Both the position numbers and the translations under genes were made by a program. 64,000 nucleotides of DNA, taken from positions 33,487 to 97,486 of IMG/VR virus record IMGVR_UViG_3300027749_000066; one strand, 5' to 3'. The stretch comes from a virus. Under the pieces are notes generated by a model, which searched no databases, was not told where the DNA came from, and was given only the letters and a program-made list of their open reading frames with translations. The first letter of the stretch is position 1. Every line of letters begins with the position of its first letter. Of this stretch, positions 2,902 through 45,694 are shown one piece after another.

Positions 2902-3079
2902 GAGGCCGTTCTATTTTATTGAGGGAGAGGCGATTGATCAGGAAGCTATCATTCGTGTTCGTCCTCAGATTGAAAAGTATGTTCGATATGATTTGAAGAA
3001 GAATTTCAAGAAGACAAATGTCACTTGGGATATGAATGATAAAGGTAACTTCAACTTTAAGATTGAGTTTTATGGTTGA
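2879..3079 (+). CDS. Small basic protein between helicase and primase
   Basis: 66 residues. ATG 2879 has AAGGAA just upstream and is preferred over the earlier in-frame ATG 2861. Lys- and Arg-rich, overlapping the helicase end by 23 nt and the primase start by 8 nt. Likely a replisome accessory judging from coupling, but no family is recognised. Confidence 0.65.
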   Translation: MSTKRWTKRPFYFIEGEAIDQEAIIRVRPQIEKYVRYDLKKNFKKTNVTWDMNDKGNFNFKIEFYG

Positions 3080-4214: not shown

Positions 4215-4880
4215 ATGAGTATGTTCAAAACACTTAGTGATCTTAAGAAGAACACAATCGAAAACAAGGGCAGTGGCCCTATGGGAGATGGCGAGCGTAT
4301 TCCTCGCTTCTTCTCCGTGAAGTCCGGCGAATCATACCTGATTCGCTTCCGTCAGGAACTCACCGAGGATTCAGCGAATTTCTCTGATGCCGCTGGGGTT
4401 GCTCATGTTGTTTCAGTTCACACTAATCCAAATGATTACAAGAAGAGTGCGATTTGCACTGGTGATAATGAGGATTATGGTTATCGCTGTTTTGGTTGTG
4501 AGCAGGTTGTCCATGATCGTGGTTGGAAGGCAAAGCAGCATCTTCTTCTGAATGTTGCAGTTTTTAGTGCTGATGACGAAACTTGGGAGCCTCGCATCCT
4601 TGATCAGAAGTTCACTGGCGCTCACGTTGCAGAAACTATTGTTACTTATGCAAGTGAGTATGGTACGATTATGGATCGTGATTTCAAGATCTCTCGTACT
4701 GGTCAGAAGCAGCAGACTAAGTATAATCTGATCCCCCTTGCTCCAAAGGATGCAAATGCTTCAATTGCAGAACTTCCTATGCATGATTTGACTAAGACTT
4801 ATAAGCTCATGAGTCCTGCAGAACAGGCTGGTTATTATATTTCTGAAGAAGACAACTCTGGCTCTAGCGGTTGGGCTTGA
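4215..4880 (+). CDS. Single-stranded DNA-binding protein (gp32-like)
   Basis: 221 residues. The centre holds a Cys/His cluster (AICTGD...YRCFGCEQVVHDRGWKAKQH) followed by beta-rich sequence, like the zinc-containing OB-fold of T4 gp32-type proteins. The C-terminus is acidic and Ser/Gly-rich (EEDNSGSSGWA), the usual protein-interaction tail. Own promoter and own terminator fit a protein needed in large amounts. Coats ssDNA in replication and recombination. Confidence 0.82.
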   Translation: MSMFKTLSDLKKNTIENKGSGPMGDGERIPRFFSVKSGESYLIRFRQELTEDSANFSDAAGVAHVVSVHTNPNDYKKSAICTGDNEDYGYRCFGCEQVVHDRGWKAKQHLLLNVAVFSADDETWEPRILDQKFTGAHVAETIVTYASEYGTIMDRDFKISRTGQKQQTKYNLIPLAPKDANASIAELPMHDLTKTYKLMSPAEQAGYYISEEDNSGSSGWA

Positions 4881-33956: not shown

Positions 33957-34156
33957 TTCATTTCTCCCATGATTAGTGCGTTGTTGTTGTCGATACGGTT
34001 TTGATCCATGATCATCTGAATCTTTTCACGATTCCTATTGTAAGAATCGTCCTCAGCTTTCATACAGAAAGCTGAGTAAACAAATGCGATAAGAATCAAC
34101 ACAATAACTGCGATGATTCCCTTCACAGTTTCTGTTGCTACCTTTGTTCTGAACAT
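33953..34156 (-). CDS. Single-span membrane protein
   Basis: 67 residues, AAAGGA site. One transmembrane segment (GIIAVIVLILIAFVYSAFC) then a charged cytoplasmic or external tail. First gene of the leftward unit. Confidence 0.65.
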   Translation of the reverse strand: MFRTKVATETVKGIIAVIVLILIAFVYSAFCMKAEDDSYNRNREKIQMIMDQNRIDNNNALIMGEMK

Positions 34157-34204
34157 AAATCGTTCCTTTTCTTGGGGATGGGACTTGCTGACAGATGTAC
34201 CCTA

Positions 34205-34233
34205 TCATGTTTGACTGGTTGCGACAAATCCAA
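34205..34233 (-). promoter_or_regulatory. Sigma-70-type promoter for the leftward unit
   Basis: On the minus strand: TTGTCG, 17-nt spacer, TAGGGT, about 50 nt upstream of ATG 34156. The TAGGGT -10 form recurs in several cassette promoters to the right. Confidence 0.5.
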
Positions 34234-34333
34234 ATCTCTGATGTCTCAAATAGATTTTGTGTCCAAAGAGTTTGTGAAAGCTTTTAGCATTAGATTTTCA
34301 CTAAAGTTTACCTTTATGTTTATTCCAACATTT

Positions 34334-34377
34334 GCGGGCGTTCTCATCGGCTTTTGCTTCTTGATGAGAACGCCCGC
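34334..34377. repeat. Large cassette hairpin (class with GCTTTTGC loop)
   Basis: 15-bp perfect stem GCGGGCGTTCTCATC and complement with a GGCTTTTGCTTCTT loop. Preceded by CCAACATTT as is the copy at 34935. Marks the left edge of the GC-rich array. Confidence 0.7.
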
Positions 34378-34394
34378 CGCTCGGGAACGCCAAG

Positions 34395-34421
34395 AAGCCC
34401 CACGGCATCGCCGTGGGGCTT
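34395..34421 (-). terminator. Intrinsic terminator of cassette gene at 34442
   Basis: AAGCCCCACGGC / GCCGTGGGGCTT with 3-nt loop; identical 27-nt element at 34998-35024. Confidence 0.8.
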
Positions 34422-34441
34422 CCTGAGGGGCTTGGGGGCCG

Positions 34442-34723
34442 TTAGCGCTTGCGCTTGGCCTTGCGAACCTCGATCTGCGGAATGCCGTTGGCATCGTAGG
34501 AGATCGACGGCTCATCGGCGCGTGCTGCTCGCCAATGCTTGCGGATCATGGCCGAGACTGCGGGCCGGTCCTCGCTTGCCACCTCACCAATGGTAGATGA
34601 CAGGCGCACGCCTTGCTTGTCCGTCACCTTTGCGAGAGTGGCGAGAAGGTCGGCGTTCCACTCGGTCTTCCGCCCTCGGGGGGACTTGACAAACTCCGAG
34701 GGGGAGATGAACTCATCAGACAT
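34442..34723 (-). CDS. Cassette protein, paralogue family A copy 1
   Basis: 93 residues, basic. Pattern FISPSEFVKSPRGRKTEWN, then LATLAKVTDKQGVRLSSTIG, AMIRKHWR, DEPSISY and a GIPQIEVRKAKRKR end. Two near-identical relatives (35047, 35701) and one longer relative (36286) follow. The basic ends suggest nucleic-acid binding; function unknown. GC-rich codon use unlike the phage core. Confidence 0.72.
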   Translation of the reverse strand: MSDEFISPSEFVKSPRGRKTEWNADLLATLAKVTDKQGVRLSSTIGEVASEDRPAVSAMIRKHWRAARADEPSISYDANGIPQIEVRKAKRKR

Positions 34724-35046
34724 AACTACTCCTAAGTGAATCGGCTAGGGCCAGTCCCTAATCCGATGAGGTAAGTATGCCGGAAGGGTCTAGGATCTAC
34801 AACCAACGGAGCATAAACATCAGGTAAACATCAGGTGAACAGCTTCGCGGTTTGGATTTGGGATCATAGTGTTTATGAAAACGTTTTGCTATACATTTGC
34901 ATTAAAGTTTAGCTAAATGTTTATTCCAACATTTGCGGGCGTTCCTGTGGGGTTTTTGCTTCATCCACAGGAACGCCCGCCGCTCGGGAACGCCAAGAAG
35001 CCCCACGGCATCGCCGTGGGGCTTCCTGAGTGGCTCTAGCGGGCGT
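34724..35046. other. Cassette spacer 1 (leader, repeats, hairpin, terminator)
   Basis: From right to left for the leftward units: terminator 34998-35024 of the next gene, hairpin 34935-34980 (GCGGGCGTTCCTGTGG stem, loop GGTTTTTGCTTCAT), AT-rich DNA with two AAACATCAGG-type repeats (34814-34835), and the 34442 gene's leader with palindrome TAGGG-N5-CCCTA (34746-34760) before an AGGAG site. Confidence 0.65.
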
Positions 35047-35328
35047 CTAACGCTTGCGCTTGGCTTTCTTGACTTCCACCTGCGGGATGCCCTCGTTTGA
35101 GAACGAGATCGACGGCTCGTCGTTGCGATCCCGACGCCAGTGCTTCCGGATCGACGCCGACACCGCGGCGCGGTCGTCCTTGTCCACGACGCCGATGCTA
35201 TCCCGAAGGACGACGCCCTGCTTGTCGGACACCTTCGCGAGAGTCGCGATCAGTGTCTCGTTCCATTCCGTCTTTCGGCCTCGGGCCGACTTGACGAAAC
35301 TTGCGGGGGAGACGAATTCGTCTGCCAT
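35047..35328 (-). CDS. Cassette protein, paralogue family A copy 2
   Basis: 93 residues, about as similar to copies 1 and 3 as they are to each other: ASFVKSARGRKTEWNETLIA, KQGVVLRDSIG, SASIRKHWRRDRNDEPSIS, ending VEVKKAKRKR. AAGGAG site. The leader has the same TAGGG-N5-CCCTA palindrome as copy 1. Confidence 0.72.
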   Translation of the reverse strand: MADEFVSPASFVKSARGRKTEWNETLIATLAKVSDKQGVVLRDSIGVVDKDDRAAVSASIRKHWRRDRNDEPSISFSNEGIPQVEVKKAKRKR

Positions 35329-35430
35329 GATTGTTGCTCCTTGCGCTTGGGCTAGGGCCAGTCCCTAACCACAAGACGTACCTTAGTCTATGGGGTGAGT
35401 CAGAACCTAATCGAAAGGCTCTATGGCGAT

Positions 35431-35447
35431 GGTCATATGTCACACCG
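35431..35447. repeat. GGTCATATGTCACAC repeat, copy 1 of 3
   Basis: Further copies at 40543 and 44100. In each, a GCTAG element lies 47-48 bp to the right, so the pair is one conserved regulatory unit. A reversed near-copy (TGTGACATCTGACC) is at 36096. Confidence 0.65.
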
Positions 35448-35570
35448 TTATGGCTTGCGTCAGCCTGGCCGATGTGCTAGGCGACTTTCGGCCCTAGCAC
35501 AGCCGAAGCTCGAGTGCAAATCGGATTCGGGCGCATACTCAACTATGCATGATTATGCAATCACCTGCGA

Positions 35571-35613
35571 CGGGCGTTCGTCGTCTGAGGAACGAAGACA
35601 CGACGAACGCCCG
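35571..35613. repeat. Cassette hairpin, GAGGAACGA loop class
   Basis: Stem CGGGCGTTCGTCGT and exact complement; loop includes GAGGAACGA, the same loop core as the GGCGGCCGTGC hairpins at 36.8, 38.3, 38.7 and 42.4 kb though the stem sequence differs. Confidence 0.65.
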
Positions 35614-35657
35614 CAGGCTGACTGGCAGCCTGCGGGCGTCGGTTGTGGGGGGTGCTA

Positions 35658-35691
35658 CTGCCCTCCCCCGAGGCGGGGCGGGGGAGGGCAG
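35658..35691 (-). terminator. Intrinsic terminator of cassette gene at 35701
   Basis: CTGCCCTCCCCCG / CGGGGGAGGGCAG stem, 8-nt loop. Confidence 0.75.
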
Positions 35692-35700
35692 ACCTTGGGG

Positions 35701-35982
35701 CTAGCGCTTGCCCTTGGTCTTTCTGACTTCCACCTGCGGGATGCCGTCGGCGCTGTAACTGATCGACGGTTCGTCGGTGCGATCACGGCGCCAGTGCTTC
35801 CGGATCATGGCGGAGGTTGCGGGACGCTCGTCCTGTGCGACGGCGCCAACGCTGTCTCGGAGGACGACACCCTTGGCGGGGGTCACCTTGGCGAGCGTGG
35901 CGATGAGTGTTTCGTTCCACTCAGTCTTGCGCCCTCGGGGTGAGCGAGCGAACTCACTCGGGGAGATGAACTCATCTGACAT
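35701..35982 (-). CDS. Cassette protein, paralogue family A copy 3
   Basis: 93 residues, family A: FISPSEFARSPRGRKTEWNE, GVVLRDSVG, SAMIRKHWRRDRTDEPSISY, ending VEVRKTKGKR. Its leader lacks the exact TAGGG palindrome but keeps ACTCACC...GGTAC shared with copy 2; TATGAT serves as -10. Confidence 0.72.
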   Translation of the reverse strand: MSDEFISPSEFARSPRGRKTEWNETLIATLAKVTPAKGVVLRDSVGAVAQDERPATSAMIRKHWRRDRTDEPSISYSADGIPQVEVRKTKGKR

Positions 35983-36285
35983 GGGGACTGCCTTTCACGT
36001 TTGCGGTTGAGCCACTCCCAACCGCTGAAGGTACCGTATCATAGGTGAGTTAGGGGATGCCACTCAGAATGGGGTTAGAACCAAGATTTCTCAGTGTGAC
36101 ATCTGACCATCAGAAATGACTTGCGCTGTACCCTCGAGCTATGGTAGGGCCATTTCGGTTCCTAGCACACATTCCACCCAAGACGCAAATCAGATCACCT
36201 GCGGCGGTCGTTCCTCTACGGTAGTGCGTGTAGAGGAACGACCGCAAAGCGCAAAGCCCCAGCCTTTCGGCTGGGGCTTTTCTTG
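35983..36285. other. Cassette spacer 3
   Basis: Contains the reversed TGTGACATCTGACC element (36096), CTCGAGCT (36133), CCTAGCACA (36159), hairpin 36204-36245 (GCGGTCGTTCCTCTAC stem) and terminator 36253-36280 (AAAGCCCCAGCC / GGCTGGGGCTTT). Confidence 0.6.
36253..36280 (-). terminator. Intrinsic terminator of cassette gene at 36286
   Basis: AAAGCCCCAGCC / GGCTGGGGCTTT with TTTC loop. Confidence 0.8.
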
Positions 36286-36720
36286 TCAGGGCCGCTGTCC
36301 GGTTTCCTCTTCTATTCGCTTGAGAGTTTCGGGGAAGTAGGGTCCATCTCGCAAGATTTGATTCAGTTCATCATGATATCCTCGGAGGTAGAAGCTGAAG
36401 AGGTCATGATAGAGTTCTGAGATTTCATCGTAGTCGAAACCGTAGACGATGAGATCCAACATTTGCTCGTTGGTGATTTCTCTAAGGCTGAGATACTTGC
36501 GCCAGTTGCGAGGGTAGGCGACGATGGGAATGTTCTTGTCGTCAAAAGTGACTAGCACCGGCTGATTGTGTTCTAGTTCCCAATGCGCGGTGATCATGTC
36601 TCGCACAGCTGTTCGATTGGTCCATTCCACTGGTCCTACGGTACTGACTAGGCGTGCTGATTGGTGAAAGCTCACGCCGCGTAGTGTTTCTAGTAGTTGT
36701 TGGCTGTAGTTGGTTTCCAT
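36286..36720 (-). CDS. Cassette protein, extended family A member
   Basis: 144 residues. Residues about 8-70 follow family A (LLETLRGVSFHQSARLVSTV, AVRDMITAHWE, QPVLVTFDDKNIPIV), but the basic N- and C-termini are replaced. A C-terminal extension of aromatic and acidic helices (YGFDYDEISELYHDLFSFY) is added. Promoter places the transcript start at the ATG, so it is probably leaderless. Confidence 0.7.
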   Translation of the reverse strand: METNYSQQLLETLRGVSFHQSARLVSTVGPVEWTNRTAVRDMITAHWELEHNQPVLVTFDDKNIPIVAYPRNWRKYLSLREITNEQMLDLIVYGFDYDEISELYHDLFSFYLRGYHDELNQILRDGPYFPETLKRIEEETGQRP

Positions 36721-36727
36721 AGGGTGA

Positions 36728-36757
36728 ACCCTAGACGATGGATCGGTGCCGTGTCAA
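36728..36757 (-). promoter_or_regulatory. Leaderless promoter of gene 36286
   Basis: Minus strand: TTGACA, 18-nt spacer, TAGGGT, then 7 nt to ATG 36720. Confidence 0.68.
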
Positions 36758-36783
36758 CTCCAAATGCACACTAAATCTCACTA

Positions 36784-36845
36784 GAGAAGATATCTATATT
36801 TGGCGGCCGTGCATCCGAGGAACGAGGATGGCACGCACGGCCGCC
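36784..36845. repeat. 62-nt direct repeat including GGCGGCCGTGC hairpin, copy 1
   Basis: GAGAAGATATCTATATTT followed by the hairpin GGCGGCCGTGCATCC-GAGGAACGA-GGATG...CACGGCCGCC. Identical over 62 nt at 38676-38737; the 44-nt hairpin part recurs at 42409-42452. Confidence 0.85.
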
Positions 36846-36886
36846 TGTGGATAACTCTGTGGATAACTGTTTCTCCGACAACGCAG

Positions 36887-36919
36887 AAGCGCCCTCGGGA
36901 AACTCCCGAGGGCGCTTTG
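36887..36919 (-). terminator. Intrinsic terminator of gene 36945
   Basis: 14-bp stem AAGCGCCCTCGGGA / TCCCGAGGGCGCTT. Two TGTGGATAAC boxes lie just beyond it (36846-36869). Confidence 0.82.
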
Positions 36920-36944
36920 CCGGTACCTCACCTCCCTTGTGAGA

Positions 36945-37448
36945 TCAGTCCATGTAGCCGTTGTTGACGAACCACAGGCGAGCGCCGTACACGCTTTCGG
37001 GGACCGTGGCGTCCTCTTGGCGGTAGAGGTCTTCCAGCGTGTCGAACTGTTCGGCCAGTTCGATTCCGGCATTCTCTCGCCCTTGGCGTTCGATCAGTTC
37101 CTGTTCGTTGGAATCGAAACCACCAGCGGAAGGGTTGGACCACAGTGAAAGAATGTCTAGCGGCATGGAAGTCGATCCGCCGTGGGGGTGATGAATGGTG
37201 AAGTCGATCAGTCGCGTTGTTATCGAAGTGTGGAATGTTGTTGTGATGGTTGTGAACCCATTCCCATACGACTGGACGAACTGAATGAACTCTGTGCATG
37301 ATCCGTTGTCGTGCATCGTGATCGTGCTCACGGGTGCGTCAACCCTGTAGCCCATGCGCATCATGCGCCAGCACAGGGTTCGGGGGATTGGGGAGAGCGA
37401 CGCAATCTGCGCCACGGAAAGATTCGTCTCCATCAGAATATCGGACAT
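36945..37448 (-). CDS. Cassette hypothetical protein
   Basis: 167 residues from ATG 37448 (GGAGG site). N-terminus SVAQIASLSPIPRTLCWRMM is helix-turn-helix-like; the middle is beta-rich with Thr and His; the C-terminus is acidic helical. No family recognised. The hairpin/DnaA-box spacer follows its terminator. Confidence 0.65.
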   Translation of the reverse strand: MSDILMETNLSVAQIASLSPIPRTLCWRMMRMGYRVDAPVSTITMHDNGSCTEFIQFVQSYGNGFTTITTTFHTSITTRLIDFTIHHPHGGSTSMPLDILSLWSNPSAGGFDSNEQELIERQGRENAGIELAEQFDTLEDLYRQEDATVPESVYGARLWFVNNGYMD

Positions 37449-37567
37449 GACAACCTCCAGTCGTACCGGCACCCGTTGTGCCGATGGCAAACGATACCAT
37501 AGTTCCAACAGTGCGTGTAGTGTTTTCCCACGTATTCCAGGTATTGTTTACCTAATGTTCATGTTCG

Positions 37568-37613
37568 GCGGGCGCACTCTTCCGCAGGAAAAGATAGCGG
37601 GGCGCCCGCGCCG
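37568..37613. repeat. Cassette hairpin, GGCGGGCGC class
   Basis: Outer stem GGCGGGCGC / GCGCCCGC and inner CCGC / GCGG around an AGGAAAAGAT loop. Same two-stem design at 39268, 39917, 40755 and 41478. Confidence 0.7.
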
Positions 37614-37618
37614 CGAAA

Positions 37619-37647
37619 AAGTTATCCACAGGTTTGTCCACAGGCTG
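37619..37647. promoter_or_regulatory. Pair of DnaA-box-like sequences
   Basis: TTATCCACAGG then TTGTCCACAGG, between hairpin and terminator of the cassette. Confidence 0.6.
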
Positions 37648-37656
37648 GGTGCTGCT

Positions 37657-37680
37657 GGCCCCCGCCCGAAGGCGGGGGCC
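37657..37680 (-). terminator. Intrinsic terminator of gene 37688
   Basis: GGCCCCCGCC-CGAA-GGCGGGGGCC. The same 24-nt element ends genes at 38354, 38793, 39391 and 41594, and a variant ends 40879. Confidence 0.85.
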
Positions 37681-37687
37681 GAGTGGA

Positions 37688-38110
37688 TCATTCGTAATAG
37701 CTGTTGTCATCATCGTGATCCGGCCCGCAGTTGCCACGGATGATGCGAACGCTGAAATAGCCTTCCGGCTCTTGGGTGAGCGTGGGGAACACGCGAGGGT
37801 TGCCATCTTCGAATCGTTCGATCCATTCGAACGCCTTGTCCAGACTCGGAACCTGACGAGAGGCGACACGCTTGCGCGTGGTGAACCACCAACCACCCTC
37901 CTCGGGTCCGCCGTACTCAGAGCAGACATCGTACACTGAGATCCACCACACGCCGTCACCGGCCGAGTCGCGGTCGATCTCGCCGGATGTCGCGCAGTAG
38001 GCGCCGTGATCAGTCATCATCTGCGCGTACTCCGGCCCGCGATCGGGAGTCCAGATTTCGGCAATCTGGCCGCAGATGTTGCAAGTGGCGGGGGAAGTGA
38101 CTTCGGACAT
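37688..38110 (-). CDS. Cassette protein with zinc-finger start
   Basis: 140 residues, GGAGG site. Begins with CNICG and has two further Cys (AYCATSG, DVCSEYG); the middle is Trp-rich (GVWWISVYD, GGWWFTTRKRV) and the tail acidic. No family recognised. Confidence 0.65.
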   Translation of the reverse strand: MSEVTSPATCNICGQIAEIWTPDRGPEYAQMMTDHGAYCATSGEIDRDSAGDGVWWISVYDVCSEYGGPEEGGWWFTTRKRVASRQVPSLDKAFEWIERFEDGNPRVFPTLTQEPEGYFSVRIIRGNCGPDHDDDNSYYE

Positions 38111-38251
38111 GGGAACCTCCGGTTCGTGCGTGACACCATGCCACGCACAAGGAATGGTAGTCGATTCAAGTTGTCAGTGCAAGTGTTTCCCATAGTGTTT
38201 CGATATGCACCAGGAATACACTCAAGAATGAATATTTATGCAACAATATTT

Positions 38252-38296
38252 GGCGGCCGTGCATTCTGAGGAACGAAGAATGCACGCACGGCCGCC
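38252..38296. repeat. GGCGGCCGTGC hairpin, variant stem
   Basis: Same loop core GAGGAACGA as the 62-nt repeat, but the inner stem is CATTCT / AGAATG instead of CATCC / GGATG, a compensatory change that keeps pairing. Confidence 0.75.
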
Positions 38297-38322
38297 TGTG
38301 GATAAACCTGTGGAAAACTGCT

Positions 38323-38346
38323 GGCCCCCGCCCGAAGGCGGGGGCC
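38323..38346 (-). terminator. Intrinsic terminator of gene 38354
   Basis: GGCCCCCGCC-CGAA-GGCGGGGGCC. TGTGGATAA and TGTGGAAAA boxes lie between it and the hairpin. Confidence 0.85.
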
Positions 38347-38353
38347 GAGTGGA

Positions 38354-38593
38354 TCAGAGATCTCGCTCAAGCGCCCAGAGGACGCCTTCGAGCCACATTT
38401 CGGCTCGAATGAGATCGTCGAACTCCTCGTAGTCTGCGGACTCGTAGCGGACTCCATCGTGCTTGAAGATGCGCACGACCCATGAGTCTGATCGCCAATT
38501 CTGATCGTGGACGATGGTTCCGAAGAACTCTCCATCGTCGGTGGATGTGCCTTGGGTGGGGGTGGGTACCCACTGTGTGGTGTATTTCTTCAC
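38354..38593 (-). CDS. Cassette hypothetical small protein
   Basis: 79 residues, GTG start, predicted leaderless. Beta-rich N-terminal half (SDSWVVRIFKHDGVRYES), then acidic helix ending LEGVLWALERDL. No family recognised. Confidence 0.65.
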   Translation of the reverse strand: MKKYTTQWVPTPTQGTSTDDGEFFGTIVHDQNWRSDSWVVRIFKHDGVRYESADYEEFDDLIRAEMWLEGVLWALERDL

Positions 38594-38599
38594 GACGAA

Positions 38600-38628
38600 A
38601 GTCTCCCACAGTTGGGGATTCGGCGCAA
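38600..38628 (-). promoter_or_regulatory. Leaderless promoter of gene 38354
   Basis: Minus strand: TTGCGC, 17-nt spacer, GAGACT, then 6 nt to GTG 38593. Confidence 0.55.
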
Positions 38629-38675
38629 GTCAATCGGGAAGATTTGCGTGCTACCACGCACATTCTATTTCTCTG

Positions 38676-38737
38676 GAGAAGATATCTATATTTGGCGGCC
38701 GTGCATCCGAGGAACGAGGATGGCACGCACGGCCGCC
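38676..38737. repeat. 62-nt direct repeat including hairpin, copy 2
   Basis: Identical to 36784-36845. Confidence 0.85.
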
Positions 38738-38761
38738 GTCCACAGCCTGTGGAAAACTGCT

Positions 38762-38785
38762 GGCCCCCGCCCGAAGGCGGGGGCC
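38762..38785 (-). terminator. Intrinsic terminator of gene 38793
   Basis: GGCCCCCGCC-CGAA-GGCGGGGGCC, 24-nt repeat. Confidence 0.85.
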
Positions 38786-38792
38786 GAGTGGA

Positions 38793-39176
38793 TCAGGCTA
38801 GATCGAAGAACCTGATGACATCCGAGTATGTCGGTTCGTCGATCTTGGTGGTTCGGCCATCGGTCCCCTTGATGGCAGCGTTGAGGATTTCCACTCCGGA
38901 GAATCCATCTTGTTCGGTGGCGTAGATTCCGATGTGCGCTCGCTCTACGCCACGGACCATCCACAGTGATGCAACGGTGCGAACCTCATCACTGTAGCGG
39001 ATCGAAGCTTCGGCCTCGTTACCGAAGACTGGCTTGGTGATACCGTTCGGGCCGGTCCATCCGTTGCGAAGCATCAGAGTGAAAAATCCGATGAGGTAGC
39101 GGGCGGATACCGGCTGGCTGATGTTGGTGTTGCGGGCTGGAGTGTCTACCAGCTTTTTGGTGTGGGTGGTTCCCAT
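38793..39176 (-). CDS. Cassette hypothetical protein
   Basis: 127 residues from ATG 39176. An upstream in-frame TTG (39212) is the first base of the -35 hexamer, so the ATG is preferred. Helical (RYLIGFFTLMLRNGW), then RTVASLWMVRGVERAHIGIY and an acidic end. No family recognised. Confidence 0.68.
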   Translation of the reverse strand: MGTTHTKKLVDTPARNTNISQPVSARYLIGFFTLMLRNGWTGPNGITKPVFGNEAEASIRYSDEVRTVASLWMVRGVERAHIGIYATEQDGFSGVEILNAAIKGTDGRTTKIDEPTYSDVIRFFDLA

Positions 39177-39183
39177 GAGGAGC

Positions 39184-39212
39184 AGTTTAGGGATGGCGAC
39201 AGTTGTTGTCAA
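39184..39212 (-). promoter_or_regulatory. Leaderless promoter of gene 38793
   Basis: Minus strand: TTGACA, 17-nt spacer, TAAACT, then 7 nt to ATG 39176. Near-consensus; it decides the start codon. Confidence 0.75.
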
Positions 39213-39267
39213 GTGTTTTGCGTGCTACCACGCACATTCAAAGTTGTCTAGAAATGTTCTCTAGTTC

Positions 39268-39312
39268 GGCGGGCGCACTGATCCGTCGAAAAGCAAACGG
39301 AGCGCCCGCGCC
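39268..39312. repeat. Cassette hairpin, GGCGGGCGC class
   Basis: GGCGGGCGC outer stem; inner CCGT / ACGG (changed in both arms relative to CCGC / GCGG at 37568); loop CGAAAAGCAA. Followed by TTATCCACA, TGTGGATAA and TGTGGAAAA boxes. Confidence 0.7.
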
Positions 39313-39359
39313 GGGCAAAGGTTATCCACAGGCTGTGGATAACTCTGTGGAAAACTGCT

Positions 39360-39383
39360 GGCCCCCGCCCGAAGGCGGGGGCC
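39360..39383 (-). terminator. Intrinsic terminator of gene 39391
   Basis: GGCCCCCGCC-CGAA-GGCGGGGGCC, 24-nt repeat. Confidence 0.85.
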
Positions 39384-39390
39384 GAGTGGG

Positions 39391-39729
39391 TCACTCTACT
39401 GTGATTCCGAAACCATCTTCGCGACGACTGTGGGTCTTGACTTCGATGAGGAGATCATCTTCGAAGTATGGAACGGGTGAGACGCATTCGTCTTCATCGC
39501 ACCATGTTCGCGTCTCATGATCGTAACAGTCATGCTCCATGCCAACAGTTGGGCGGGTGATAAAAATTGTTGCGATGAGGATTCCCCCAAGGAAGATCTC
39601 AACTCCTGCAGAGTCGTTCCACGTTACTGCGTTGAATGCTGTCACTTTCGGCATGATGCCGTTCAGCATGAGTTCGGATGGGGTTGCCGGAGTTTCCGGC
39701 TGGGATGAGGTACCGCTTGTGTTGTTCAC
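39391..39729 (-). CDS. Cassette protein with possible membrane segment
   Basis: 112 residues, GTG start 6 nt after a TACCAT -10 (leaderless). Ser/Thr/Pro-rich N-terminus, hydrophobic VEIFLGGILIATIFI, then Asp/Cys/His-rich EHDCYDHETRTWCDEDECVS which could bind metal. Shares the MNNT start with the genes at 40050 and 40879. Confidence 0.65.
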   Translation of the reverse strand: MNNTSGTSSQPETPATPSELMLNGIMPKVTAFNAVTWNDSAGVEIFLGGILIATIFITRPTVGMEHDCYDHETRTWCDEDECVSPVPYFEDDLLIEVKTHSRREDGFGITVE

Positions 39730-40049
39730 GTTGTCATGGTACAGGAGCCAAGTGAACGCACAATGGTTTTTGGGTAAACAGAAGATGAATCTTTTTGTTC
39801 ACTTTCTGTTCATCGTTTCTTTATGTAGATGAACATTGGGTGAACTTTTTTGTTCATGTTCTGTTAGCTCAATGTTCACCATATATTCATCTTTTGTTCA
39901 TCTTCCGTTCATGTTCGGCGGGCGCATTCTCCCATCAGAAAAGACAATGGGGCGCCCGCCGCCCGGTTTTCCACAGGTTTGTCCACAGGCTGTGGATTGT
40001 TGTGGTGCCTGTGGACAACTCCGCTGGGGAGTTGTCCACAGGCTGGGGA
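39730..40049. other. Cassette spacer with GTTCAT repeats, hairpin and inverted DnaA boxes
   Basis: AT-rich 39775-39915 carries about ten GTTCA/TGAAC-type repeats (TTTGTTCATCTT, CCGTTCATG). Then hairpin 39917-39960 (loop CAGAAAAGAC) and TTTTCCACA and TTGTCCACA boxes. At 40008-40042 a 15-bp stem is made of two inverted TTGTCCACAGG boxes, which replaces the usual terminator of gene 40050. Confidence 0.65.
40008..40042 (-). terminator. Hairpin of inverted DnaA boxes downstream of gene 40050
   Basis: CCTGTGGACAACTCC / GGAGTTGTCCACAGG, 5-nt loop. Terminator position, but built from TTGTCCACA boxes. Confidence 0.6.
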
Positions 40050-40475
40050 TCAGACTGCCGAAATCCAGTGGCGGATGTCGATGATTGTTTCCGTGAGAGT
40101 GTCAGTCTCATCAAGGAACGATACAGTTCCGTCTGTGTAGACCCTTGCTTGTGTGCAACGGTCATCGACGCTGGAATCGTCGGTTCGGAAGACTGACATT
40201 ATCGCAACGCCGTTGTCCTCTATGACGGTCACAGAATGAATGAATCCGCCAACATTGGTGACATGTGTTGCAATGTGACGAACCGACTCACTGATGCCCA
40301 TACGAAGCAGAGCATCATAGGTGCGAACGGCGTTCATGCTAGATGCGCCGCTACAGTCAGACATATGGCCAAGAAACAGAACCCATGCGGGGACGGAGCC
40401 AAGGCGTGCGACTGCTGCCGTGGCGGGGACTGCCAGAACCTCTGGCGGGGTGAGGTACTTCTGTGTGTTGTTCAC
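40050..40475 (-). CDS. Cassette protein, family B member
   Basis: 141 residues, GTG start 6 nt after TAGGGT (leaderless). LTPPEVLAVPATA...VPAWVLFLGHMSD, then HIATHVTNVGGFIHSV and a beta/helix end RHWISAV. The gene at 40879 has the same order (LTPTEALSVP, VPTWAMLLGEI, LGGRIQST), and 43524 is a more distant relative. Function unknown. Confidence 0.68.
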   Translation of the reverse strand: MNNTQKYLTPPEVLAVPATAAVARLGSVPAWVLFLGHMSDCSGASSMNAVRTYDALLRMGISESVRHIATHVTNVGGFIHSVTVIEDNGVAIMSVFRTDDSSVDDRCTQARVYTDGTVSFLDETDTLTETIIDIRHWISAV

Positions 40476-40542
40476 AGAATCACCCTAGTGCCGATTGCGT
40501 CCGGATTGCAAGCCAGAAGGCCGATTTTCACCAGGTTTTTGT

Positions 40543-40559
40543 GGTCATATGTCACACTG
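40543..40559. repeat. GGTCATATGTCACAC repeat, copy 2 of 3
   Basis: GGTCATATGTCACACTG; GCTAG lies 48 bp to the right, with TTGACA in between giving a plausible rightward promoter (TTGACA, 17 nt, CTAGAC). Confidence 0.65.
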
Positions 40560-40847
40560 TTTGGACTTGACAATGGTTGGTGAGATGAGCTAGACTCTCA
40601 AATCCCACAAGATTGGTGGGGTTTGCATTCCCCACAAAGTTGGTGGGAATGAGCTAGCACATCAAAGTGAACTTTGAATGAATGGAAGGTAAACAGAAGA
40701 TGAATTCTTTTGTTCATCATATGTTCATCTTTTGTTCATCTTCCGTTCATGTTCGGCGGGCGCATTCTCCCATTGGAAAAGAATATGGGGCGCCCGTCGT
40801 CGGGCAATGTTTTCCACAGGCTTGTCCACAGGCTGTTGGGAACTGCT

Positions 40848-40871
40848 GGCCCCCACCCGAAGGTGGGGGCC
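40848..40871 (-). terminator. Intrinsic terminator of gene 40879
   Basis: GGCCCCCACC-CGAA-GGTGGGGGCC: one base pair is changed in both arms versus the other copies, keeping the stem. Confidence 0.85.
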
Positions 40872-40878
40872 GAGTGGA

Positions 40879-41289
40879 TCACTCTCCGGTGATGTACTTC
40901 CGGATGATTCGGAGAGCCGAGAGGAGCGTATCGTCGTGCTCGTTCCAGTAGTCCAGCGTTCTACTCATCCAGATCCCATCGGGATGGATGGTCATCTCGG
41001 CATGGTTGTATCCGTGGCCGATGTCGATTGTCACGTTGCCACCATGCACCCATGTGGACTGAATGCGGCCACCGAGTGAATCGACAGTGTGGGCGATCTT
41101 GATGATCGAACACCCAAAGTGATTCGCGCTTGTGGGTGCGATTGTGTTCAGCGCAACGAGAGCCGTCTGGAGAGTTGTTCCAGAGAAGTTATCCACGGTG
41201 ATTTCACCGAGGAGCATGGCCCAAGTTGGGACGGTGGATGGGACTGACAGAGCCTCTGTCGGGGTGAGGTGCTGCTGTGCGTTGTTCAC
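40879..41289 (-). CDS. Cassette protein, family B member
   Basis: 136 residues, GTG start 6 nt after a TACCCT -10. LTPTEALSVPSTVPTWAMLL, then SIIKIAHTVDSLGGRIQST, a beta segment and LSALRIIRKYITGE. Paralogue of gene 40050; function unknown. Confidence 0.68.
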   Translation of the reverse strand: MNNAQQHLTPTEALSVPSTVPTWAMLLGEITVDNFSGTTLQTALVALNTIAPTSANHFGCSIIKIAHTVDSLGGRIQSTWVHGGNVTIDIGHGYNHAEMTIHPDGIWMSRTLDYWNEHDDTLLSALRIIRKYITGE

Positions 41290-41593
41290 GTTGTCAGGGT
41301 ACCAGCTCCAAGTGAACGCAAGGTGAACGGACGGTGGAATCGGGGTGAATGTTGAAGATTCACCTGCTGTTCACCTTCCCTTTATGTGAATGAATTTTGA
41401 ATGAACAGAAGATGAACAAAAGGTGAAATGTTTTATTCACCATGTGTTAACCTAAAGTTCACCGAATGTTCATGTTGGGCGGGTGCATTCTTCCGCAGAA
41501 AAAGAAAGCGGAGCACCCGCCGCCGACTTTTCCACAGGTTTGTCCACAGGCTGGGTGCTGCTGGCCCCCGCCCGAAGGCGGGGGCCGAGTGGA
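41290..41593. other. Cassette spacer with GTTCAC/GTTCAT repeats
   Basis: From 41310 to 41475 many TGAAC and GTTCA elements in both orientations (GTGAACG, GTTCACC, GATGAACA, GTTCATG). Then hairpin 41478-41522, TTTTCCACA and TTGTCCACA boxes (41528-41551), and terminator 41563-41586. No gene supported. Confidence 0.65.
41563..41586 (-). terminator. Intrinsic terminator of gene 41594
   Basis: GGCCCCCGCC-CGAA-GGCGGGGGCC, 24-nt repeat. Confidence 0.85.
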
Positions 41594-42214
41594 TCAGGCT
41601 CCGATGCTCATCATCTTCCGGAAGATTGCGAGGGTGATCTCGGCGTCAACCTCGGCACGATGGCTGAACGGAACGTGAATCCCGAACCGCTCGGCAGTGG
41701 CCTTCAGGTTGTGACGACCCTCGGTGAACATGAGTCGGGACATTCCGAGAGTGCAGAACGTGCCAACCTTGGGAGCCTTGACTCCGGCTCGGTGCAATTC
41801 CACCACGATGAACGAATGATCGAACGATGCGTTGTGCGCCACGAATGTTGCGTTCCGCATCATCTCCCGAACCTTGGGGGCGATGTCTGCGAACGTCGGA
41901 GCGTGCATCACCATCGCATCAGTGATGCCGTGAATCTCGGTGGCACCAGTGTCGCGGTTCGGGTTCACCAGTGACACGAACCGACGAACCTCGCGACCCT
42001 TGGCGTCGATGCGGATCATTGCGATTTCGATGATCCGTTCCGAATGGGCATCCAAGCCAGTGGTCTCAACATCGACAACCACGCGATCGCCCGAGCGCAG
42101 AAGATCGCGAACGATGTTGTAGGTGCAATGGGCGAGAGTGAGAAACGCTCCCACGATGCATGATGCGATGACGAACCCGACAGGCTCGGAGACTGCGGAG
42201 TAGACAGTGTTCAT
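41594..42214 (-). CDS. Membrane-anchored DnaQ-like 3'-5' exonuclease
   Basis: 206 residues, AAGGAG site. An N-terminal hydrophobic segment (VGFVIASCIVGAFLTLA, about 12-28) precedes a DEDDh domain: VVVDVETTGL (D48, E50), FVAHNASFDH (D132) and HRAEVD (H185, D190). This is the epsilon/RNase T fold; it could proofread, degrade nucleic acid or act at the envelope. A membrane anchor on a DnaQ domain is unusual. Only array member with an assignable enzyme fold. Confidence 0.82.
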   Translation of the reverse strand: MNTVYSAVSEPVGFVIASCIVGAFLTLAHCTYNIVRDLLRSGDRVVVDVETTGLDAHSERIIEIAMIRIDAKGREVRRFVSLVNPNRDTGATEIHGITDAMVMHAPTFADIAPKVREMMRNATFVAHNASFDHSFIVVELHRAGVKAPKVGTFCTLGMSRLMFTEGRHNLKATAERFGIHVPFSHRAEVDAEITLAIFRKMMSIGA

Positions 42215-42384
42215 GATTTCTCCTTGCTAGGTGCCGGTGGACTCTCCCCCGACAAAGACAAGTATTGCAGGCCCAAGTGAACATAGGATTGTGGGAAGGT
42301 GAACAGAAGGTGAATTCATTTGTTCATCAAAAATTCATCTGTTTTTTATGAAGATGAATTCTTGGTGAATTTTGAGCTAAATTT
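42215..42384. other. AT-rich iteron-like block left of the DnaA-box cluster
   Basis: GTGAACA, GTGAATTC, GTTCATC and AAGATGAATTC-type elements between 42275 and 42372, directly beside the DnaA-box cluster; a possible unwinding region. Confidence 0.5.
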
Positions 42385-42759
42385 TTGTCCACAGGGTTAT
42401 CCACAGGCGGCGGCCGTGCATCCGAGGAACGAGGATGGCACGCACGGCCGCCATCCACAGGTTTTTCCACAGGCTGTGGATAACTTTCGGTTGTCCACAG
42501 GTTTTTCCACAGGCGGGGAGAAGTTGTCCACAGGTGAGGGGAGTTCTCCACAGGGTTGTCCACAGGTTGCCTGTGGATGAGGGTGTGGAAAACTGTTGTC
42601 CACATGGTTGTCCACAGAGGCTGAGTGGTTGTCCACAGTTTCCACAGGTTTGTCCACAGGTTTGTCCACAGGCGCAGATCCTGGAGGCAGTGGTTGTCCA
42701 CAGGGCTGGGGAAAACCCTGTGGACAACGAGCCTGGGCCTGTGGAGTGAGTTTTCCACA
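42385..42759. promoter_or_regulatory. Cluster of about twenty DnaA-box-like sequences (origin or titration candidate)
   Basis: Exact TTGTCCACA or its complement at 42385, 42491, 42524, 42556, 42596, 42608, 42629, 42650, 42662, 42694 and 42719 (complement). TTATCCACA at 42397 and complement at 42475. TTTTCCACA forms at 42463, 42503, 42584 (complement) and 42751, plus weaker variants. Most are followed by GG. TTGTCCACA is the actinobacterial DnaA-box consensus. The cluster also holds the third hairpin copy (42409-42452). Confidence 0.8.
42409..42452. repeat. GGCGGCCGTGC hairpin, copy 3
   Basis: Same 44 nt as 36802-36845, embedded between DnaA-box-like sequences. Confidence 0.85.
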
Positions 42760-42774
42760 GGCCCAGCCGTCGGG

Positions 42775-43020
42775 TCAGAGCCAGTCGCCGGGATTCAGGA
42801 ATGCATCGGAACACTCTCGGCAGATGAGATCTCCCGAATCCATGTTCTGATATGTCGGATGCCATCCAGTGATCTCCCCATCCGTGACGATGGCGCCGAT
42901 GGGTTCACTGGCACAGTAGTGGCAGTTGTCGGCCAATGGCATTCCGATGCGCTCGGATGTTTCGATGAGAAACTCATCGGCGATGTGGCAGATGTTCGCG
43001 GTGTTCGGGTTGATGGTCAT
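42775..43020 (-). CDS. Cassette zinc-binding protein
   Basis: 81 residues from ATG 43020 (GAAAGAGA site). NCHYCASEPIGAIVTDGE and LICRECSDAF form C-x2-C...C-x2-C. No HNH signature. Function unknown; it is the gene next to the DnaA-box cluster. Confidence 0.66.
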   Translation of the reverse strand: MTINPNTANICHIADEFLIETSERIGMPLADNCHYCASEPIGAIVTDGEITGWHPTYQNMDSGDLICRECSDAFLNPGDWL

Positions 43021-43075
43021 TGTGTTCTCTTTCGTGTGTTCTGGTTGGTGTTGGGTTGGGATGGAAGGACAGCGT

Positions 43076-43101
43076 GGGTCCGGCACCGGAGTGCCGGACC
43101 C
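43076..43101 (-). terminator. Intrinsic terminator of gene 43108
   Basis: GGGTCCGGCAC-CGGA-GTGCCGGACCC; same 26-nt element at 43490-43515. Confidence 0.82.
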
Positions 43102-43107
43102 TGCCGG

Positions 43108-43431
43108 TCAGATCGACACTCGGCCAGTGTCTCGGGCGAGGTAGACAACCGGAATCAGATCATGGTGTGGGGACACCATCGTGTAGTAGTTTCCGTTGGT
43201 GTGGCCGTGGATGCCCCGACCGTTCTGATCGATGAATCCCGGAGCGCACACTGCCGATGAGAACGTGTAGCCGAGAGTGTTGAGGATGGTGATGGTGGTA
43301 TCAATCCGATCGGAGTGATGCATCATCGGGACGCTGTAATCCGCCTCGGTGAGTAGAGCCTCTACGACTGAGGCGATGGTCTCGGCCGAGAGTCGGATGG
43401 TGGTGGTGGTGGTGTTCGGGTTGGTGTTCAT
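43108..43431 (-). CDS. Cassette hypothetical protein with Thr run
   Basis: 107 residues, AGGA site. N-terminal TTTTT run, helical SAETIASVVEALLTEAD, then His-rich GIHGHTNGNYYTMVSPHHD. Possibly a distant relative of family B. Confidence 0.62.
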   Translation of the reverse strand: MNTNPNTTTTTIRLSAETIASVVEALLTEADYSVPMMHHSDRIDTTITILNTLGYTFSSAVCAPGFIDQNGRGIHGHTNGNYYTMVSPHHDLIPVVYLARDTGRVSI

Positions 43432-43489
43432 TGTGTATTCCTATCTGTTCTAGTTGGTTGGTTTGTTGGTGTGGAAGGACTACCGGAGC

Positions 43490-43515
43490 GGGTCCGGCAC
43501 CGGAGTGCCGGACCC
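43490..43515 (-). terminator. Intrinsic terminator of gene 43524
   Basis: GGGTCCGGCAC-CGGA-GTGCCGGACCC. Confidence 0.82.
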
Positions 43516-43523
43516 TGCCGGTA

Positions 43524-43979
43524 TCACCAGCCGGAGCCGGTGGGGAAGTTGGAGCCGGTGAACCAGCGGAGGAGCGCAGCCGCTTCCGGCATCGTGACGG
43601 TACCGTGTTGGGTGATTTCGCAGCCACCATCGAACGTGGTGGTTTGAACCTTCACGCGGCCCGCCTCGTAGATGGTGGCAGTGAGGCTAGCGCCGGTAGC
43701 GTTGTGAGCGGTTACTTCGACGTAGTTGTTGAACACATCAGTGCAATACACCTCGGCATCGTTCTGACCGCAGTAGGCAATCCATCGGATGACTCCGTGG
43801 AGTCGGCTAGCCGGTGATGCCATGAGTGCGAGGTAGCCGCGGGCGTGGGCGTTGGCGTTGGGCGTGTAGCCGTGGCGCAGGTCGGCCATGCTTCCGGCGA
43901 ACATGACCCACGACTCTACGAGCGCCGGAATATCCGCCGGTCGGGGAGTGGTGGTGGTGGTGGTGGTTGCGTTGGTCAT
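43524..43979 (-). CDS. Cassette protein, distant family B member with Thr run
   Basis: 151 residues from ATG 43979 (AAAGGG site). TTTTTTT run coded by GTG triplets (opposite strand), then IPALVESWVMFAGSMADLRH, HGVIRWIAYCG and MPEAAALLRWFTG, which follow the order seen in genes 40050 and 40879. Function unknown. Confidence 0.65.
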   Translation of the reverse strand: MTNATTTTTTTPRPADIPALVESWVMFAGSMADLRHGYTPNANAHARGYLALMASPASRLHGVIRWIAYCGQNDAEVYCTDVFNNYVEVTAHNATGASLTATIYEAGRVKVQTTTFDGGCEITQHGTVTMPEAAALLRWFTGSNFPTGSGW

Positions 43980-44378
43980 GGCTGACCCTTTCGGTGAGTG
44001 GGTGCCGGTCGGTCCGGCACCTCGGTACTGCGTAGTCAGACTACACCCGCGGGGGGGGGGCCGCGCCAGTTTTGGGGCCGATTTCTGATCGGATTTGGTG
44101 GTCATATGTCACACCGATTTCGGCCACATCGTCGGCCGAACTGTGCTAGGGGAGCTCGAGGTCAATCTCCACCAGATCGGTGGGGATTGTACCCCACCAG
44201 TTTAGTGGGGAAGCCAGGATCTGGGATAGAGGGCAGCCTTGTCTGAGCGTGTGTTAAATTTTTGTCTTTTTTTGGTTTGACAAATAAAATTGCCCTTCAA
44301 GCTGGGGGTGTGCTTGAGGGGCGGGGGGTTGCTTTTTTTGTTTTTTTGTGTGTTGGGGCTAGATGTCCCAGTTGGGGG
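43980..44378. other. Right border of the GC-rich array
   Basis: G10 homopolymer (44051-44060), GGTCATATGTCACACCG (44100), GTGCTAGGGGAGCTCGAGG, two stem-loops made of CCACC...GGTGG and CCCCAC...GTGGGG (44168-44212) as in the 40.6 kb spacer, then T/G-rich DNA with the direct repeat GGGGCTAGATGTCCCA. No gene supported except the small ORF ending at 44379. Confidence 0.55.
44100..44116. repeat. GGTCATATGTCACAC repeat, copy 3 of 3
   Basis: GCTAG follows 47 bp to the right. This copy ends the GC-rich array, copy 1 lies near its left side. Confidence 0.65.
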
Positions 44379-44489
44379 CTAGATGTCCCAATTTGGGGCT
44401 TCGTCGGGTTCGTCGTCCCATTGGATTTCGTCGGGATAGTCGGGGATGGGGATGGTTTCGGGTTCGATTTCGATGATTGTGGGGGTCAT
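44379..44489 (-). CDS. 36-residue acidic peptide
   Basis: ATG 44489 overlaps the stop of the upstream gene (TAATGA); stop is TAG at 44379. Sequence is Pro/Asp/Glu-rich (MTPTIIEIEPETIPIPDYPD) and ends in PNWDI. The last codons and stop are duplicated just downstream as a GGGGCTAGATGTCCCA direct repeat. Confidence 0.55.
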   Translation of the reverse strand: MTPTIIEIEPETIPIPDYPDEIQWDDEPDEAPNWDI

Positions 44490-44695
44490 TATTCTTCTTC
44501 TTCGTAGTCGTATTCGTATTCGGCGTCTTTTTTGGCTTGTTGGAGGGCGATTGTGAGCATTCCGATGGTTTCGTAGGCTGCGAGTTCTTCGTCTGTGTCA
44601 ATTTCGATGCCGAGGTGTCCGTCTTCGTCTAGTACTTTGCTGATGATGATGGTGCCGAGTGTGATTCCGGTGTTTTGTTCGGTGTTTTCGTCCAT
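44489..44695 (-). CDS. Small acidic phage protein
   Basis: 68 residues. TLGTIIISKVLDEDGHLGIE, then helical AAYETIGMLTIALQQA and a very acidic tail (EYEYDYEEEE). Resembles small actinophage proteins of unknown role. AT-richer than the array genes. Confidence 0.68.
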   Translation of the reverse strand: MDENTEQNTGITLGTIIISKVLDEDGHLGIEIDTDEELAAYETIGMLTIALQQAKKDAEYEYDYEEEE

Positions 44696-44763
44696 GTGTT
44701 TAGTGTATCATGGTGGTGTTTTTGTGGCGATGGGGGTTTGGCCGGTTTTTTGTTGCGGTTGTG

Positions 44764-45378
44764 TTACTTTTTGTTGGCTTGGTGGATTGCTTTGGCGAAT
44801 CCGTTGGGTGTGACCGATCTTTTTTCGGCTCTGTCGGCGCTTGGTGGTAGGTTGTTGAGTTTGTTTTTGTTGGTTGGTTGTACATATTTTGTTTCTGGCA
44901 TGATGAAGCCGTTTCCGGTCCATAGGCAGGTGCGTTTGTAGTAGGCTTCTTCTTCTGGGTTGTCTAGGTAGCCTGCGTAGTCTGTTGGTTGGAAGATGTA
45001 GTCGGGTTTTCTCCAGTATGTTGAGATGGTTGATACTGGGTTTTCGATCATGTATGGTGCGTCGGACCATTCTGCGATTTTTACGCAGGCTTCTACGACT
45101 TGGAGGGCTTCGACTAGACCTGTGAGGCCTTTGTCGTGGAAGTATCGGGCGCCGGAGACTGCGACGTTTGTGCAGGGTGGAAATCCGAATACTATTTCGT
45201 ATTCTGTTCTTGGTGGAAGCCATTTGGTGATGTCAGCACCGATTGTGGTGAGATTTCCGGTTTTTTTGGTTCCTTTGGGGTGTTGTGTGTCTACGATCAT
45301 GCATTCGTAGCCTGCTTCCAGCCACGGTTGGACGATGTTCCCTGTTTTGTCACAAAGTGATAGTACTAGTTTTGTCAT
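44764..45378 (-). CDS. C5-cytosine methyltransferase-like protein
   Basis: 204 residues. Motif IV-like GFPPCTNVAVSG (P67-P68-C69, catalytic Cys) and motif VI-like MIENPVST (E112, N113), with a Rossmann start LVLSLCDKTGN. Much shorter than host Dcm-type enzymes and without an obvious target-recognition domain. It may methylate phage DNA as anti-restriction, or modify a nucleotide. No restriction enzyme lies nearby. Confidence 0.7.
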   Translation of the reverse strand: MTKLVLSLCDKTGNIVQPWLEAGYECMIVDTQHPKGTKKTGNLTTIGADITKWLPPRTEYEIVFGFPPCTNVAVSGARYFHDKGLTGLVEALQVVEACVKIAEWSDAPYMIENPVSTISTYWRKPDYIFQPTDYAGYLDNPEEEAYYKRTCLWTGNGFIMPETKYVQPTNKNKLNNLPPSADRAEKRSVTPNGFAKAIHQANKK

Positions 45379-45408
45379 TTGTCAAGTTTATCATGTTTTG
45401 TATGGCAG

Positions 45409-45435
45409 AAAAGACCCCTTCGGGGGTCTTTTCTT
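45409..45435 (-). terminator. Intrinsic terminator of gene 45476
   Basis: AAAAGACCCC-TTCG-GGGGTCTTTT; A and T runs make it usable on both strands. Confidence 0.88.
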
Positions 45436-45475
45436 GTGCTGCTTAGGGTTTATCGCCCTCCGATTGATTATTTTA

Positions 45476-45694
45476 TCATAGAACGGGGTGATTGTCAGGG
45501 ATTTGTTTGTCATTAAATACGATTTCATGACCGTAGAGGCGAATTACTGGGACGCACGGGTCATCTCCATTATCCCACATTTCTATTTCTTTGTCACTCA
45601 TCGGTATTCCGTCGTGTGTGTCACATACCGGGTTTGAAATCCACCCTTTTGCGACACCGTATGTTAACCATTCGTTGTATTTTTCCCAACTCAT
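45476..45694 (-). CDS. Conserved small phage-type protein
   Basis: 72 residues, MSWEKYNEWLTYGVAKGWIS, PVCDTHDG...MSDKEIEMW, DDPCVPVIRLY. The form PxCDTHDGxP is common in uncharacterised actinophage proteins. 4-nt overlap with the upstream gene. Confidence 0.72.
   Translation of the reverse strand: MSWEKYNEWLTYGVAKGWISNPVCDTHDGIPMSDKEIEMWDNGDDPCVPVIRLYGHEIVFNDKQIPDNHPVL

Follow-up and report, generated by a model that had tools for sequence, protein, structure and literature searches.

What use does a phage that encodes no DnaA make of a dense cluster of DnaA boxes? The cluster lies in the window analyzed here, a 64,000-nucleotide stretch (bases 33487-97486) of the 97,486-bp virus record IMGVR_UViG_3300027749_000066, and coordinates below are those of the window unless another record is named. 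To our knowledge, how replication starts in virulent actinophages that carry their own replisome is not settled. Here, we describe the architecture of this locus and of its counterparts in other viruses, and propose that the virus probably borrows the replication starter protein of its host, which it may also soak up.

The phage has a GC content of about 36% (its genome averages about 64% AT), with the exception of an island at 34.0-45.5 kb that is mostly 50-62% GC. It encodes a DnaE-like polymerase, a DnaB-like helicase, a DnaG-like primase, a single-strand DNA binding protein (SSB), RuvC and a RecA/UvsX-like protein, along with a Cas4-like exonuclease, ribonucleotide reductase, terminase, capsid protease and endolysin. 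Four of the replication genes are placed as follows.

1675-2901, plus strand: DnaB-like replicative helicase
3036-3998, plus strand: DnaG-like primase
4215-4880, plus strand: single-strand DNA binding protein
6490-9951, plus strand: DnaE-like DNA polymerase III alpha (phrog_405)

No DnaA domain is found anywhere in the phage contig, so the protein binding any DnaA boxes would be the host's DnaA. Judged from sequence, that host is probably an actinobacterium, because the best-ranked annotated-phage matches to DnaE and to the capsid protease part are mainly Streptomyces phages of the Stanwilliamsviridae type, because the phage possesses a PF06737 (Rpf-type) transglycosylase domain, which is typical of actinobacteria, and because its boxes are of the TTGTCCACA type. 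These three strands lend indirect support to the actinobacterial association drawn in an earlier note on this DNA. The similarity to Stanwilliamsviridae (about 39% over 89% of the length of DnaE, and 41-46% for the capsid protease part) shows that the phage is related, and not necessarily that it belongs to the family. Searching species genomes for the pattern TTGTCCACAGGNTTGTCCACAGG gave 51 matches, mostly in actinobacteria and none beside a DnaA signature motif, and indicated no host; several of the 51 represent one repeated sequence in Amycolatopsis/Prauserella and relatives. In L009 (8333-11518), a single 1061-aa open reading frame appears to join the capsid maturation protease to a major-capsid-like part, an unusual fusion.

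The box array itself sits in a 560-bp non-coding gap (42215-42774) that is among the two longest of the contig under a simple gene call, upstream of a gene for a DnaQ-like exonuclease.

42385-42759, plus strand: DnaA-box array, 18 TTNTCCACA including 11 TTGTCCACA (15 forward, 3 reverse)
42270-42384: AT-rich flank (66% AT) with TGAA/TTCA repeats about 11 bp apart, a candidate unwinding element or operator
42408-42452: GC-rich hairpin GGCGGCCGTGC...GCACGGCCGCC inside the array, with further copies at about 36802-36845 and 38694-38737
41594-42214, minus strand: DEDDh 3'-5' exonuclease, DnaQ-like (PF00929, 1.2e-33; phrog_192, 3e-44)

The earlier note had described about twenty boxes in 375 bp, eleven of them exact or exact complement, mostly in one orientation, mostly followed by GG and lying beside AT-rich repeated DNA, and each of these particulars is borne out. 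Exact TTGTCCACA occurs ten times forward and once in reverse, 15 of the 18 TTNTCCACA boxes are forward, and GG directly follows 13 of the 18. Five degenerate copies, four that keep the TCCACAG core (near 42454, 42571, 42641 and 42739) and one TCCCCAG copy at 42706, bring the total to about 23, while dinucleotide shuffles of the same 375 bp contain on average 0.03 TTGTCCACA and 0.05 TTNTCCACA. Abutting the array, the stretch at 42300-42390 with its TGAA/TTCA repeats contains the most AT-rich 60 bp (75% AT) of 36.0-44.5 kb; an AT-rich candidate unwinding element thus accompanies the boxes as at oriC, on a phage genome that is itself about 64% AT. The box nearest these repeats (42385) reads away from them, whereas in E. 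coli the R1 box is oriented towards the unwinding element. Neither strand of 42215-42790 has TAG/TAA triplets three in a row, which would mark a DnaA-trio, and a recognizable DnaA-trio is absent from some origins.

The boxes are spaced in a manner that would favor cooperative DnaA binding. Neighboring boxes are separated by under 40 bp in 22 cases. The start-to-start distance is exactly 12 bp in 15 of these, with both boxes in the same orientation in 12, and the others fall mainly at 20-22 and 31-32 bp, the exceptions being 16, 25 and 28; intervals of 12, 20-22 and 31-32 bp are close to whole helical turns. Five of the same-orientation double boxes belong to the array (starting at 42385, 42491, 42544, 42596 and 42650). 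When twelve pairs are aligned, the TCCACA cores and the 12-bp register are kept while the flanks diverge. E. coli DnaA in vivo prefers box pairs 2 or 3 bp apart, and one inserted base between paired boxes strongly cuts its binding (PMC11317965); the phage boxes show this cooperative spacing of 2-3 bp between boxes. Same-orientation boxes support head-to-tail DnaA oligomers, and box direction can vary between origins (PMC10316083).

Twelve same-orientation double boxes on the phage (0 in shuffles) compare with 0-5, median 0, in 61 Actinomycetota genomes, which are samples of one phylum and not the phage's host; only 13 of the 61 have any, and in the richest genomes they lie mostly next to dnaA. 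Across 34 dnaA-proximal Actinomycetota regions, most hold 0-4 strict boxes per 375 bp and four hold 12-18, and in the dense regions the commonest same-strand spacing is 12 bp, followed by 20-22 bp. The match in both density and spacing indicates that the phage array is built on the same rules as the densest oriC-like regions, and by its sequence the array is very probably a binding platform for host DnaA. Glycomyces, Actinokineospora and an actinomycete MAG carry three to six DnaA boxes just upstream of dnaB (L226, L247 and L236), and L219 and L227 have box clusters upstream of dnaB too, by flanking sequence, a placement that suggests DnaA control of dnaB in actinobacteria.

The array is not the only box-bearing site of the phage. 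The GC-rich, hypervariable island carries 18 more boxes in eight intergenic gaps at 36846-41548 (shuffle mean 0.41), mostly as pairs with 12-bp start-to-start spacing, for a total of 36 in the island (shuffle mean 0.44) and 40 in the whole contig, nearly all of them full-consensus sites. In the following list, G002 denotes the relative IMGVR_UViG_3300043372_000294 (96,743 bp).

34000-45500: GC-rich island of small minus-strand genes; about 36.9-44.1 kb without counterpart genes in G002, flanks conserved
36846-36866, minus strand: double DnaA box, intergenic gap
37622-37642, plus strand: double DnaA box, intergenic gap
38297-38317, minus strand: double DnaA box, intergenic gap
38748-38756, minus strand: single DnaA box, intergenic gap
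39322-39354: three DnaA boxes 12 bp apart (one forward, two reverse), intergenic gap
39750-39912: AT-rich TGAA/TTCA 11-bp repeats between gene start and double box (similar at 40665-40750 and 41388-41473)
39967-40040: four DnaA boxes including one double box, intergenic gap
40810-40830, plus strand: double DnaA box, intergenic gap
41528-41548, plus strand: double DnaA box, intergenic gap
44764-45378, minus strand: phage DNA methyltransferase (phrog_757; 74% identical in G002), conserved island edge

Along the direction of transcription (island gene calls are simple ones, and the genes considered are all on the minus strand), a typical gap runs from stop codon through GC-rich terminator, double DnaA box and long GC-rich hairpin to gene start, and four gaps add AT-rich TGAA/TTCA repeats of about 11 bp between hairpin and gene start. 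The array follows this same plan with its box part expanded. Terminators, hairpins and AT-rich repeats of different gaps are 65-100% alike, marking them as copied intergenic modules. The TGAA/TTCA repeats (39750-39912, 40665-40750, 41388-41473 and 42275-42375) are arranged ahead of four minus-strand genes as direct runs that face one another, and look like iterons or operator arrays of some regulator. At 34442-35991, three related genes stand in tandem (two compared, with 70% protein identity), and the gaps between them carry terminators that resemble one another and long inverted repeats that end in GCGGGCGTTC.

Comparison at the locus itself is with G002 alone, as the other relatives identified through DnaE do not cover it. 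G002, an independent contig, is 71-92% identical to the phage in aligned stretches and has a GC-rich island in the same place with conserved flanking genes, which leads us to reject an assembly chimera of phage and host DNA. A captured host oriC is likewise rejected, the contig being free of any DnaA domain. No gene that the window carries between 36.9 and 44.1 kb is matched in G002, and the G002 island holds eight boxes that are TCCACAG or close to that type, in flanks unrelated to those of the window; four of the eight fit into about 44 bp. At 80.8-88.0 kb of G002, CGCTCGCTTG, itself contained in a longer repeat, is present 20 times, about once per intergenic gap and always in one orientation (also L150), and these repeats are unrelated to those of the window. 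Each island thus appears to carry a separate family of intergenic repeats, a pattern that cassette-like exchange of genes would give. Among viral contigs, a search with one repeat of the island found no close copies and the methyltransferase led only to distant ones; annotated phages, searched in near mode, gave no DNA-level similarity to the island.

A distant search of annotated phages with the array matched mostly Streptomyces phages, eight of which, when aligned, keep two to four boxes in a non-coding gap of 1.3-2.2 kb. The earlier note had proposed a search for DnaA boxes in related phages; they are present in these eight phages and at the G002 locus. In the Loccivirinae, the gap boxes read TCCACAGGTTTATCCACAG then TGTGGATAA or similar. 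The genes on either side of the gap are convergent in LukeCage and StarPlatinum, and also in Jollison except for one small predicted gene, and in LukeCage about 57-90 bp separate the boxes (L258 1501-1591) from the start of the terminal repeat that follows them. With genes pointing into the gap and boxes placed just before a terminal repeat, the box site is not simply a promoter. Boxes occur near genome ends, terminal repeats or the terminase gene in several unrelated phages (LukeCage, L319-L321), including Arthrobacter phage Seahorse, where they lie near 56.4 kb of 56,481.

Box arrays extend well beyond these relatives. At least 120 viral contigs contain TTNTCCACAGG pairs separated by 3 bp, and none contains the reversed pattern. 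Dense viral arrays include 24 boxes in about 490 bp (L061) and 13 in 240 bp (L084), and portal, terminase and sigma factor genes confirm several array-bearing records as phage. In the small ssDNA phage Microvirus mar31 (MZ089777), the DnaA-box variant TTTTCCACAGG is repeated 11 times in tandem with an 11-bp period at 1480-1598, in the gap that separates the gene for the pilot protein from that for the major capsid protein. Two SP6-like phages of Klebsiella, ZK1 and VLCpiA2b, carry 5-6 boxes, several of them 21 bp apart, and two T7-like phages (Berlinvirus), A7 of Shigella and P483 of Escherichia, carry 4-5. T7-like phages, SP6-like phages and microviruses are not expected to initiate replication with DnaA, and the presence of arrays in them weakens an origin as the general explanation. 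A scan with a 4-bp gap between boxes, meant as a spacing control, matched one large, apparently related phage family and so provides no test of spacing. One large group of viral contigs (L326-L445, for example L339, L335, L351 and L359) shares a conserved pair of DnaA boxes 4 bp apart, TTATCCACAGGnnTTATCCACAGG. The TTATCCACAGGnnTTATCCACAGG contigs are 46-48% GC in those examined; the double box often comes right after a stop codon, a TTGAC...TACG motif lies downstream in many, and a large gene in a terminase-like position lies about 760 bp further on.

How, then, does the phage use its array? Our best explanation is that the main use is as a DnaA-dependent phage replication origin, to which we give a probability of roughly 0.43, somewhat short of even odds. 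We propose that host DnaA would fill the helically phased boxes and form a filament, which would open the adjacent AT-rich repeats, and that the phage's own DnaB, primase, DnaE and SSB would assemble at the opened repeats. The double boxes of neighboring gaps would raise the local DnaA concentration, and the box set as a whole would draw DnaA from host oriC as a by-product. We favor this model because the array packs 18 boxes into 375 bp (0.05 in shuffles) with oriC-like spacing, because the most AT-rich 60 bp abut it, and because the phage has a bacterial-type replisome with no known initiator and no DnaA of its own. The persistence of boxes in G002 through gene turnover argues in the same direction, as does the conserved box footprint in Streptomyces phages at a site that is not simply a promoter. 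Several observations speak against it. The earlier note had suggested GC skew as an origin marker, and no switch occurs at the array in the phage or in G002, the skew keeping one sign around the whole genome in both. Nor is there a DnaA-trio, and the nearest box faces away from the AT-rich DNA; a further 18 boxes are located elsewhere in the island, and arrays occur in phages that are not expected to use DnaA. At third codon positions the plus strand of the island remains rich in G, including stretches whose genes are on the minus strand, so that strand bias in the island does not follow gene direction.

The earlier note had read this DNA as a phage with DnaA boxes, which the DnaE, DnaB, terminase and capsid genes and the box counts confirm, and had left its role between an origin and a sink for DnaA, a choice that sequence does not decide. 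As a sink, the boxes would mainly sequester host DnaA, stopping host initiation and DnaA-dependent transcription and freeing precursors for the phage, while phage replication starts elsewhere. This we hold to be possible but somewhat unlikely. The phage genome brings 12 double boxes against 0-5 in the 61 Actinomycetota genomes and multiplies them as it replicates, its boxes are nearly all full-consensus and spread over eight further gaps, and arrays recur in phages with other modes of replication (the microvirus, the SP6-like Klebsiella phages and the T7-like Berlinviruses). Yet a sink does not need a compact array beside the most AT-rich DNA, and the closest annotated family, with only about two to four boxes, has too few to titrate DnaA. 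If the boxes are nonetheless decoys, which we doubt, phages of very different kinds would have repeatedly evolved them, shutting down host replication without a phage protein, and the phage of this window would be an extreme case, with more double boxes than any of the 61 sampled actinobacterial chromosomes.

The same boxes could instead control transcription, with double boxes and array upstream of minus-strand genes tying early phage expression to host DnaA. Most boxes do sit between a terminator and the next same-strand gene, and there are parallels in the double boxes just upstream of dnaB in Glycomyces, Actinokineospora and the actinomycete MAG and in the DnaA boxes reported upstream of dnaB and dnaQ in Caulobacter (PMC8203912). 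Such control is nevertheless improbable as the main use, as the boxes stayed in G002 while the genes changed, some Streptomyces phage boxes lie in a gap with genes pointing in from both sides, and hairpin and AT-rich repeats separate boxes from gene starts, often by 100-300 bp. Finally, since the intergenic modules of the island have clearly been copied, copying could have multiplied a motif that lacks any present function. We regard such expansion without selection as very unlikely: the 12-bp spacing and TCCACA core hold while flanks diverge, the G002 boxes stand in unrelated flanks, and TTNTCCACAGG pairs with a 3-bp gap are found in at least 120 viral contigs against none reversed.

These proposals lend themselves to experiment. 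The array is a compact, testable fragment of 0.6 kb, and the actinobacterial case offers a test of the origin model; for the decoy idea, tractable laboratory phages are available, since a microvirus and T7-like and SP6-like phages that infect Escherichia, Shigella and Klebsiella also carry arrays. If true, a decoy would represent host take-over by bare non-coding DNA that soaks up the initiator. Neither dense arrays of DnaA boxes in phages nor a phage decoy for DnaA came up in our literature search, a weak indication given that most subscription papers lay outside its coverage.

Among known systems, the lytic Pseudomonas phage PseuGes_254 has a putative origin that likewise combines an AT-rich region with predicted DnaA boxes; in the accessible text of PMC11512268 it is an Ori-Finder prediction only, and the dense array is a feature of the window phage. 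The gap of Stanwilliamsviridae (Streptomyces cluster BE) also places DnaA boxes in a large non-coding region, 12 bp apart in the Loccivirinae, but has only two to four of them, in LukeCage beside a terminal repeat; this likeness rests on the boxes and on related DnaE and capsid protease, not on established common descent of the site. Like the phage island, datA groups high-affinity boxes at a site other than oriC, where they could reduce free DnaA, but it comprises two consensus boxes and four with one mismatch and depends on an IHF site for its ATPase-promoting role (PMC5835720), against 36 boxes in the phage island. E. coli double boxes share the same orientation and 3-bp separation and are mostly single regulatory sites on the chromosome (PMC11317965), whereas the phage has 12 on one genome. 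Compared with the actinomycetal oriC, the phage array has no dnaA gene beside it, no DnaA-trio was found, its nearest box faces away from the AT-rich flank, and extra boxes are spread over several kb; yet the two share box sequence, same-orientation spacing of 12 and 20-22 bp, an AT-rich flank and density, with 18 boxes per 375 bp in the phage and up to 18 in the densest oriC-like region examined.
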